The notes beneath the pieces are model-generated. The model worked only from the letters and a program-made list of their open reading frames with translations, had not been told where the DNA came from and did no database searches. Shown here in pieces: positions 19,918-23,034 of a DNA stretch of 64,000 bases (its first letter is position 1; the number at the start of each line of letters is the position of its first letter). The stretch is from Beijerinckiaceae bacterium (GTDB lineage Bacteria; Pseudomonadota; Alphaproteobacteria; Rhizobiales; Beijerinckiaceae): NCBI GenBank assembly GCA_947454485.1, contig CANGJJ010000001.1, positions 62,001 to 126,000 on the forward strand, in the 5' to 3' direction. The position numbers and the translations under genes are program-made.

Positions 19918-20427
19918 ATGGATTCTGCAGCTCTGCGCGCCATGCAGGCGCCCTATAAAGACAAATACAAGTCCGACCCCAATGCCGCTGTGATCACCCT
20001 CAAAGCGCATGGCACGCTGGATGAGTCGAAAATTGCCTGCAAGGTCGAGACGGGCCGCGCTTTGGCGGTGGCGGGTCTTCATCCGGCCACGGGTGGTTCG
20101 GGGGCTGAATTGTGCTCGGGCGATATGTTGCTTGAGGCGCTGGTCGCTTGCGCGGGTGTCACGCTGAAAGCCGTTGCGACGGCGCTGGAGATCCCGTTGA
20201 AGGCTGGCACGGTGCGCGCTGAAGGCGACCTCGACTTCCGGGGAACTTTGGGCGTCGACAAGGAGGCCCCCGTGGGCTTCCGCGAGATCCGCCTGACTTT
20301 CGATCTGGAGACCGATGCACCGCAGGACAAGATCGACTCGCTGATCAAGCTGACCGAGCGCTATTGCGTCATCTTCCAGACGCTCAACAAGCCGCCCAAG
20401 CTTGGCCTGACCGTCAATAAGGTCTGA
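19918..20427 (+). CDS. OsmC/Ohr-family protein
   Basis: The 169-residue protein has the OsmC fold signatures: a first cysteine in LVACAGVTLKAVA and a second in ERYCVIFQTL. OsmC and Ohr reduce organic hydroperoxides with such a cysteine pair. The gene follows the binding protein by 27 bp and is probably co-transcribed with it; an intrinsic terminator ends this unit. Subtype and substrate cannot be decided by eye. Confidence 0.85.
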   Translation: MDSAALRAMQAPYKDKYKSDPNAAVITLKAHGTLDESKIACKVETGRALAVAGLHPATGGSGAELCSGDMLLEALVACAGVTLKAVATALEIPLKAGTVRAEGDLDFRGTLGVDKEAPVGFREIRLTFDLETDAPQDKIDSLIKLTERYCVIFQTLNKPPKLGLTVNKV

Positions 20428-20454
20428 GGCTTTCGCCGGCTCCGCCTTTTAAGG

Positions 20455-20480
20455 CCCGCCCTCTCGGGGGCGGGTTTTTT
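20455..20480 (+). terminator. Intrinsic terminator after the OsmC gene
   Basis: CCCGCCC (20455-20461) pairs with GGGCGGG (20468-20474) around a TCTCGG loop and is followed by six T residues. It is the best classical Rho-independent terminator in the window. Confidence 0.88.
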
Positions 20481-20493
20481 ATTTGCCGGACGA

Positions 20494-20511
20494 GTGTGTA
20501 TAAATACACAC
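20494..20511. promoter_or_regulatory. Perfect 18-bp palindrome, probable HicB operator
   Basis: GTGTGTATAAATACACAC is a perfect palindrome located 17 bp before the HicB start. The HicB protein carries a ribbon-helix-helix DNA-binding domain, and HicB proteins often repress their own promoters by binding palindromes there. The central TATAAA could also form part of the -10 element, so binding would block transcription. Confidence 0.65.
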
Positions 20512-20528
20512 CAGCTTTGAGGTAAGCC

Positions 20529-20930
20529 GTGAAGTCCTATGTTGCCCTTGTTCATTGGGAGCCCGGTTCTGATTTCGGTGTCTCCTTTCCCGACTTTCCC
20601 GGCTGCGTCACCGCTGGGGCGAGCCTCGATGAGGCTGTTGAGATGGGGCAGGAGGCTCTGGGCCTGCATATCAGAGGCATGATGGAGGATGGGGAGCCAG
20701 TGTCCCCTCCCTCCTCTCTGGAGGCCGTTATGGCCCATAAAGAGCATCGTGACGCCCTCGCGGTGGTGATGCTTGCCCCCGTGATGCCTGCCAAAGTGGT
20801 GCGGGTGAATATTTCCCTGCCGGAGGATGTCTTGGGCGAGATTGATCGCTATGCTGAGCAGCAGGGCCTCACCCGGTCCGCTTTTCTGGCGCGCGCGGCG
20901 CGTCAGGCCATCGCGCAAGAGCGAAGCTGA
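20529..20930 (+). CDS. hicB: HicB-family antitoxin/regulator with RHH domain, no adjacent HicA
   Basis: The 133-residue protein starts at GTG 20529 with GAGGT upstream. Residues 1-75 form the HicB partial RNase-H-like domain ([17 protein letters not shown]). Residues about 92-130 form a ribbon-helix-helix motif ([20 protein letters not shown], then [15 protein letters not shown]). HicB normally neutralises the mRNA interferase HicA, but neither the 100 bp upstream nor the 196 bp downstream can encode a HicA of 60-80 residues. It therefore looks like a solitary regulator. The next gene is dnaK. Confidence 0.88.
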
Positions 20931-20943
20931 GGCCGGGGATTCG

Positions 20944-20972
20944 GTTGCGCCAAAAAAATGCCGCTCCTATAT
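20944..20972 (+). promoter_or_regulatory. Possible heat-shock (RpoH-type) promoter for dnaK
   Basis: GTTGCG (20944-20949) and CCTATAT (20966-20972) are 16 nt apart. The pair loosely fits the alphaproteobacterial RpoH pattern (CTTG then C[CT]TATAT) and sits upstream of dnaK with a leader of about 150 nt. The -35 match is weak. Confidence 0.4.
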
Positions 20973-21048
20973 AGCCCTCACAGGTCGTGGAACCCTTGCA
21001 GTCAGCGCCGCGAATACCAATCTCAGCGGCATCGGGGACCGGAGAGTG

Positions 21049-21064
21049 GACGGTTCGAACCGTC
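21049..21064 (+). promoter_or_regulatory. Perfect 16-bp palindrome in the dnaK leader
   Basis: GACGGTTCGAACCGTC is a perfect palindrome 62 bp before the dnaK start. In RNA it forms a 6-bp stem with a 4-nt loop, extendable by G-U pairs. It may be a protein operator or a leader hairpin. Its role is unknown. Confidence 0.4.
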
Positions 21065-21126
21065 TGCTTGACCAAGACCGGATCGCTTCGGGGTCCGGGG
21101 TTCTGCGAATGAAAGGGATGAGTATC

Positions 21127-23034
21127 ATGGCTAAAGTAATCGGTATCGACCTCGGCACGACAAACTCCTGCGTGGCCGTTATGGAAGGGTCGTCGCCCAA
21201 GGTGATCGAAAATGCCGAAGGCGCCCGCACCACCCCCTCGATTGTGGCCTTCACCGACGATGGCGAGCGCCTCGTGGGCCAGCCGGCCAAGCGCCAGGCT
21301 GTTACCAATCCAGAGCGCACCTTCTTCGCCATCAAGCGCCTGATCGGCCGCACCTTCGCCGACCCCATGACCCAGAAGGACATGGAGCTGGTGCCCTATC
21401 AGATCGTCAAGGGTGGCAATGGCGACGCTTGGGTCAATGCTGACGGCAAGCAATATTCCCCCTCCCAGATCTCCGCCTTCACATTGCAGAAGATGAAGGA
21501 GACCGCAGAGGCCTATCTGGGCCAGCAGGTGACGCAGGCCGTCATTACTGTGCCCGCTTACTTCAACGACGCACAGCGTCAGGCCACCAAGGACGCGGGC
21601 AAGATCGCGGGCCTTGAAGTGTTGCGCATCATCAACGAGCCGACCGCTGCAGCGCTGGCCTATGGCCTCGACAAGCAGGGTTCGGGCACGATCGCGGTCT
21701 ATGACCTTGGTGGCGGCACCTTCGACGTGTCGATCCTCGAGATCGGCGATGGCGTGTTTGAAGTGAAATCCACCAATGGTGATACCTTCCTTGGTGGTGA
21801 AGATTTCGACATGCGCCTCGTCGAATATTTGGCCGACGAGTTCAAGAAAGAGCAGGGCATTGACCTGAAGAAGGACAAGCTCGCTCTGCAGCGTCTCAAG
21901 GAGGCCGCTGAAAAGGCGAAGATCGAACTCTCTTCTGCAACCCAGACCGAGATCAATCTGCCTTACATCACCGCTGATGCGAGTGGCCCCAAGCATCTGG
22001 CCATGAAGCTCACCCGCGCGAAATTCGAAGCGCTGGTCGATGACCTCATCCAGAAGACGATTGAGCCCTGCCGCAAGGCTTTGAAGGATGCTGGCCTCAC
22101 CGCTGGCGAGATCAATGAAGTGGTGCTCGTCGGCGGCATGACCCGCATGCCGAAGGTGCAGGAGATCGTAAAGCAGTTCTTCGGCAAGGAGCCCCATAAG
22201 GGCGTCAATCCTGACGAAGTGGTTGCTATCGGCGCGGCAGTTCAGGCTGGCGTGTTGCAGGGCGATGTGAAGGATGTGTTGCTGCTCGACGTGACCCCGC
22301 TGTCACTGGGCATCGAGACTTTGGGCGGCGTCTTCACCCGCTTGATTGATCGCAACACGACGATCCCCACCAAGAAGAGCCAGTCCTTCTCAACGGCTGA
22401 AGACAATCAGACGGCTGTGACCATCCGCGTGTTCCAGGGCGAGCGCGAAATGGCAGCAGACAACAAGCTGCTCGGCCAGTTCGATCTTGTGGGCATTCCC
22501 CCCGCACCGCGCGGCGTGCCGCAGGTGGAAGTGACCTTTGATATCGACGCTAATGGCATTGTGAATGTCACGGCGAAGGACAAGGCCACCAACAAGGAAC
22601 AGCAGATCCGCATTCAGGCCTCGGGCGGCCTCAGCGATGCGGATATCGACAAGATGGTCAAGGACGCGGAGATCCACGCGGCTGAAGACAAGGCTCGCCG
22701 CGAACTCGTCGATGCCAAGAACCATGGCGAAGCCTCGATCCATTCGGCCGAGAAGTCGCTCAAGGATTTTGGTGACAAGGTCTCGGACGCTGACAAGAGC
22801 GCTATCGAAGCGGCGATCACCGCCCTGCGTACAGCCCTTGAGGGTGAAGATGCAGAGGCGATCAAGACCCGCACCGATGAGCTGTTGCAGGCCAGCATGA
22901 AGTTGGGCGAAGCCATGTATAAGGCGCAGCAGGACGGCGCTGCGCCCGGTACTGAGGGCGAACATCATGCCCATGACGATGTGATCGACGCCGACTTCAA
23001 GGAAGTGGGCGACGACAAGAAAAAGGGCGCGTAA
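21127..23034 (+). CDS. dnaK: Molecular chaperone DnaK (Hsp70)
   Basis: The 635-residue ATPase chaperone folds and protects proteins with DnaJ and GrpE. It begins [21 protein letters not shown] and shows the phosphate loops ([38 protein letters not shown]) and the hinge [14 protein letters not shown]; the substrate domain follows [17 protein letters not shown]. The C-terminal tail [13 protein letters not shown] matches the conserved family end. An upstream ATG at 21118 is possible. dnaJ follows after a terminator-like hairpin, giving the usual dnaK-dnaJ order. Confidence 0.98.

Follow-up and report, generated by a model that had tools for sequence, protein, structure and literature searches.

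An orphan HicB antitoxin gene between osmC and dnaK, likely left by the loss of hicA from a hicAB operon

HicB antitoxin genes and their hicA toxin partners make up HicAB operons. We examined a hicB gene that stands alone, behind an inverted repeat and directly upstream of the heat-shock gene dnaK, in a 64,000-nucleotide stretch (the window) of a Beijerinckiaceae assembly (GCA_947454485.1). The original prediction, made from the sequence, took it for a toxin-free, autoregulated repressor gene that might act on dnaK. In our analysis, the locus is best explained as a hicAB operon that inserted between osmC and dnaK and has since lost its toxin gene, leaving an orphan antitoxin, a reading that we consider likely. 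The features discussed are collected in the table; the names osmC and dnaK were taken from reading of the translations.

Features of the hicB locus and its neighbours, in window coordinates
Feature	Position	Strand	Description	Basis
osmC	19918-20427		upstream neighbour of the hicB locus	
osmC terminator	20451..20478	+	directly before the hicB locus	
hicAB-type operator (predicted)	20494..20511	+	GTGTGTAT-AA-ATACACAC, 8-bp arms and 2-nt centre	exact in the window, recurs before hicA in relatives
TATAAA	20499..20504	+	likely -10 element within the operator	sequence; comparison of -35 with intact relatives
Probable hicA 3' remnant	20514..20525	+	GCT TTG AGG TAA (A-L-R-stop)	MAFFT placement on hicA 3' ends
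hicB	20529..20930	+	133 aa, GTG start; HicB antitoxin domain and C-terminal ribbon-helix-helix	Pfam, structure match
dnaK promoter region	20942..20974	+	TTGCGC-N17-TATATA, 3' border of the insertion	conserved in hicB-free relatives
dnaK	21127-23034		downstream neighbour of hicB	

A HicB gene, its operator and the absent toxin

The hicB reading frame is intact and full length. Its product matches PF15919 (HicB_lk_antitox) over residues 4-124 (E 3.7e-33; 114.7 bits, cut-off 27) and RHH_5/RHH_1 over residues 91-131 (RHH_5 38.3 bits, cut-off 26), which places it among the HicB proteins with a ribbon-helix-helix (RHH) domain, and the solved HicB 6g1n/6g26 was matched over residues 4-130 (E 1.2e-18). 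The protein most likely still folds, and it has no second relative in the assembly at E values up to 1. That there is no space for hicA on either side was confirmed: 17 nt separate the gene from the operator, and the dnaK promoter begins 14 nt past the hicB stop codon. The proposed genome scan for hicA gave no HicA above the Pfam cut-off, the best profile match in the whole assembly scoring 14 bits (cut-off 27) and the best match to a close HicA used as query having an E value of 0.72; because the assembly (3.29 Mb, not closed) is 98.57% complete, the absence of hicA is strong but not absolute. An inverted-repeat operator stands at the operon promoter with no hicA adjoining hicB; the protein is a HicB by family, but without a toxin the locus does not make up a HicAB system.

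The repeat upstream of hicB had been described as a perfect 18-bp palindrome overlapping a TATA-like element. Its two 8-bp arms are indeed perfect and TATAAA lies inside the 18-mer, but the central AA is non-symmetric and not self-complementary, so the whole is not a perfect palindrome. As a bare shape it is unremarkable, the window containing 5 repeats with 8-bp arms and a 2-nt centre, where 20 mononucleotide shuffles average 1.1; it stands above chance by position and conservation. The identical 18-mer lies directly before the hicA start codon, with hicB following, at three loci of the same genus (L007, L010, L011; loci are cited by their L numbers), and it recurs unchanged in Bradyrhizobium (L122). 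Another same-genus locus (L013) has the same arms around a different centre, GTGTGTATTCATACACAC, before hicA, and an Aminobacter locus (L026) has ATGTGTATAGATACACAT at the equivalent place before hicA. Across 51 genomes of the genus, the 16 specified bases are exact in 5 (the window's own counted), all 5 at hicB loci; allowing up to 2 mismatches added a sixth genome, whose site has 2 mismatches and is not at hicAB. Among 397 genomes of the family, a scan with at most 1 mismatch returned 12 sites, spread over 11 genomes; hicB loci account for 11 of the sites, and one falls within an unrelated ORF. The reversed pattern, used as a control, gave 2 sites. Because it recurs exactly before hicA in complete operons of relatives, the 18-mer is, on this comparative reading, a hicAB operator, and the same recurrence rules out a chance palindrome even though the bare shape is ordinary. 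For a group of alphaproteobacterial HicB proteins, we thereby obtain GTGTGTAT-N2-ATACACAC, covering the -10 element, as a candidate operator; for the HicB of S. meliloti, the specific binding site is unknown according to a 2024 review (PMC11594946).

Two further features of the relatives' operators were observed. On the Sinorhizobium plasmids (L121, L123), the half-sites before hicA are reversed in order, ATACACAT..CGTGTGTAT, and HicB may bind alternating half-sites. At four complete loci (L007, L010, L011, L077), the operator ends at the hicA start codon or one base before it; with the -10 element inside an operator that abuts the start codon, the hicA transcript of complete loci may be leaderless.

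The insertion site and the trace of hicA

We retrieved 30 dnaK loci of the genus, and a HicB match was found at one, the window's own, and at 0 of the 29 others; 10 genus members carry a full osmC 258-459 nt before dnaK with no hicB between, so that hicB occupies a gap that is empty in these relatives. The dnaK promoter and leader align with those of five hicB-free relatives, and hicB would therefore have come in upstream of an unchanged promoter. Judged from these alignments, the hicB locus was inserted between osmC and dnaK. The same comparison speaks against dnaK as a target of HicB, a role that the original prediction had suggested as possible. The genome scan for the palindrome found the operator once in the assembly, with up to 3 mismatches allowed; neither the dnaK promoter nor any other part of the genome has a second copy. 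Lacking a second operator, and with dnaK promoter and leader the same where hicB is missing, we reject regulation of dnaK by HicB.

The dnaK 5' leader (21014-21126) is itself strongly conserved in the genus, with and without hicB. It consists of CATCGGGGACCGG, a variable hairpin and CCGGATCGCTTCGGGGTCCGG.GGTTCTGCG, followed by the Shine-Dalgarno sequence; a consensus fold of 15 sequences has 17 pairs, 2 of them changed on both sides, at -15.2 kcal/mol, and a search of Rfam with 20400-21200 returned nothing near a gathering score. It is possibly an undescribed structured leader.

Complete loci run in the order operator, hicA (about 190 bp), hicB. In the window, the 17-bp spacer between operator and hicB is likely, but not certainly, what remains of the hicA 3' end. 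Many relatives' hicA genes end in K-L-R-stop, and the spacer reads A-L-R-stop; TTGAGGTAAG likewise ends hicA in S. meliloti Ak57, and plasmid homologues, Ak57 among them, have the similar hicA end AAATTGAGGTAAG. The doubt arises because the remnant is 12 nt long with a moderate match score of 10. Of the window's 42,644 17-mers, 64 reach this score, as do 7 (1.4%) of the 493 centred on GAGG. The hicB Shine-Dalgarno sequence GAGG (20519-20522) lies within the putative hicA codons, and selection would keep this overlapping stretch anyway.

On the favoured reading, a hicAB operon would have entered the osmC-dnaK gap and then suffered a break that begins at the hicA start, just past the operator, and ends some three codons short of the hicA stop, which would have left the operator, the hicB ribosome-binding site and hicB. 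We infer this deletion from homologous loci elsewhere, because no close relative with hicAB at the osmC-dnaK site was found; the nearest HicB is 62% identical. Close relatives were also sought in viral contigs, which yielded 7 pattern stretches, none of them a relative, and 8 phage records carry a distant HicB at 35-37% identity. As far as one genome allows a judgement, the locus is most likely a decay intermediate, and it would display the leftovers of toxin-antitoxin decay: the toxin gone, and the antitoxin kept along with the final codons of hicA, since these contain the ribosome-binding site of hicB.

Relatives at homologous operons have the toxin that the window lacks, and the window is not alone in lacking it. 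We tabulated 70 loci, from which repeat entries for a single place (L025, L092-L096, L098, L099) had been removed beforehand. HicB is at least 118 aa long in 53 of them, of which 43 have a complete hicA and 10 have none complete by the script's rule; the 17 loci with a shorter HicB were left out of the tree. Removing the overly distant L024 and L119, at no more than 33-35% likeness, and L080, in which the 5' end of hicB is damaged and out of frame, left 50, 7 of which are without a complete hicA: the window, L016, L070, L076, L082, L088 and L111. In L111 a stop codon lies inside hicA; the other five relatives combine a full-length HicB with a hicA tail (only tails in L076 and L082) or with no hicA, and L070, from a genome of the family, shares its upstream sequence with L025 (Methylocella silvestris). 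On the tree of 50 HicBs, the toxin-less state of the 7 rows takes 7 changes to explain, no fewer than 5 of which are forced by well-supported branches, and it appears at tips only. Since the toxin-less HicBs never form a clade, this pattern speaks for repeated and recent toxin loss rather than an old domesticated repressor, with the proviso that sampling was one genome per species and that single sequencing errors may occur, in L111 above all. In one of these relatives, L088 (G191), we noted an arrangement like the window's: hicA is missing, and 11 nt separate an operator-like GTGTGTAATAATGTGCGC from hicB, which starts with TTG.

We also asked whether HicB evolves faster once the toxin is lost. 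For the toxin-less group the signal is suggestive (Mann-Whitney one-sided p 0.028, 4 against 19 end branches of the HicB tree). By pair, L088 changed faster than its sister L101, by 17:3 (p 0.0026), or 12:4 (p 0.077) with another outgroup; the effect is absent or contrary in L016 (9:9 or 11:3, p 0.057, against L014, depending on outgroup) and in L070, which evolved more slowly than L075 (13:27). For the window HicB, none of 12 relative-rate comparisons was significant, and we therefore do not claim relaxed constraint for it. It departs from conserved residues at 9 positions in all, which is high but within the range of intact relatives (0 to 12).

Regulation and alternative explanations

Whether the gene still regulates itself depends on both protein and promoter. 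The HicB of S. meliloti binds the hicAB promoter without HicA, its RHH domain alone doing so equally well (PMC6327479), and repression by HicB3 of Y. pestis relies mainly on a site that overlaps the -10 box (PMC11594946). By analogy, the window HicB probably still binds its operator; its RHH domain would then occlude the -10 element and hold its own expression low, and with HicA absent nothing would titrate HicB off the operator. The promoter is another matter. In all 12 intact relatives examined, a TTGACA-like hexamer (4-6 of 6 positions) precedes the TAT element by 14-17 nt, whereas the window has at best 3 of 6 at a matching distance, in a place now taken up by the osmC terminator's T-run. 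A consensus scan found no sigma-70 promoter at the operator, under a rule that rejects TATAAA too. Autoregulated expression is thus doubtful, because the -35 element of the intact relatives is not recognisable in the window, and present autoregulation may be nil; hicB would be weakly expressed and of no present benefit. What stands of the predicted autoregulated repressor is a toxin-free HicB behind its own operator. Rather than a purpose-built repressor gene, it would be a hicAB operon without hicA.

Might HicB have been kept to regulate host genes, dnaK among them? Its intact frame and the perfect operator arms would suit a domesticated repressor, as would the preservation of the RHH domain (12 of 14 conserved positions kept, against 28 of 33 in the N-terminal domain), and antitoxins have been proposed as regulators (PMC12654330, PMC7192599). 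Yet the single operator in the genome leaves HicB with no other target that the operator sequence would reveal; neither the unaltered dnaK promoter and leader, nor the dnaK loci of the genus that do without HicB, nor the scatter of toxin-less HicBs over the tips of the tree fits such a role, and we regard it as improbable. A toxin that is present but not recognisable as HicA, or that lies elsewhere, is more improbable still: the small unassembled fraction leaves some space for one, but the profile and protein searches were negative and the locus itself has no room for a gene.

Selection for an antitoxin without a toxin could instead have acted through anti-addiction, which has been published as a proposal for orphan antitoxins (PMC7192599). 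A resident HicB would neutralise HicA and repress the operators of arriving hicAB operons, so that loss of hicA with retention of hicB would be selected. That a resident orphan HicB could act on new hicAB elements is suggested because the operator is shared letter for letter with hicAB loci whose HicBs are only about 52-56% identical to it, differing by nearly half; moreover, 21 plasmid records carry relatives of this HicB. Against this, the N-terminal, toxin-binding domain departs at 5 of its 33 conserved positions, more than in most intact relatives; one departure is K10W, at a position where almost every relative has lysine. The -35 element is poor as well. A protective role of this kind for the window HicB is therefore unlikely, and we give only a slim chance to the wider idea that disarmed hicAB operons are immunity loci against arriving hicAB elements, with toxin loss and antitoxin retention selected repeatedly. 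Loss of hicA from an inserted operon, with hicB left behind, remains our preferred account.

Comparison with known systems

The window HicB shares with S. meliloti HicAB (PMC6327479) the architecture of an N-terminal COG1598 domain and a C-terminal RHH, but hicA is present there and missing here. The pSymB homologue of S. meliloti Ak57 (L121) resembles the window in having the hicA 3' end AAATTGAGGTAAG beside the hicB start, and differs in the reversed order of its half-sites (ATACACA..TGTGTAT). Y. pestis HicAB3 (PMC11594946; structures 4p78/4p7d) likewise has an RHH HicB and an inverted repeat overlapping the -10 box, for which repression is known; unlike the window, it has hicA and two 15-bp operators.

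In having an antitoxin gene without a toxin gene, the locus is like the orphan type II antitoxins surveyed in K. pneumoniae (PMC7192599). Orphan antitoxins are abundant (PMC12654330, PMC7192599), degraded pairs are one proposed source of them (PMC7192599), and a solitary hicB is reported from Methanosarcina barkeri (PMC10865869). Among open-licence papers, we found no lone HicB described at this level, and the available text of PMC7192599 and PMC10865869 describes no locus that retains both an operator and a remnant of the toxin gene's 3' end. Orphan antitoxins are thus already known and fairly common; the novelty of the window locus is small, and what it adds to them is a clear view of how one may have originated.
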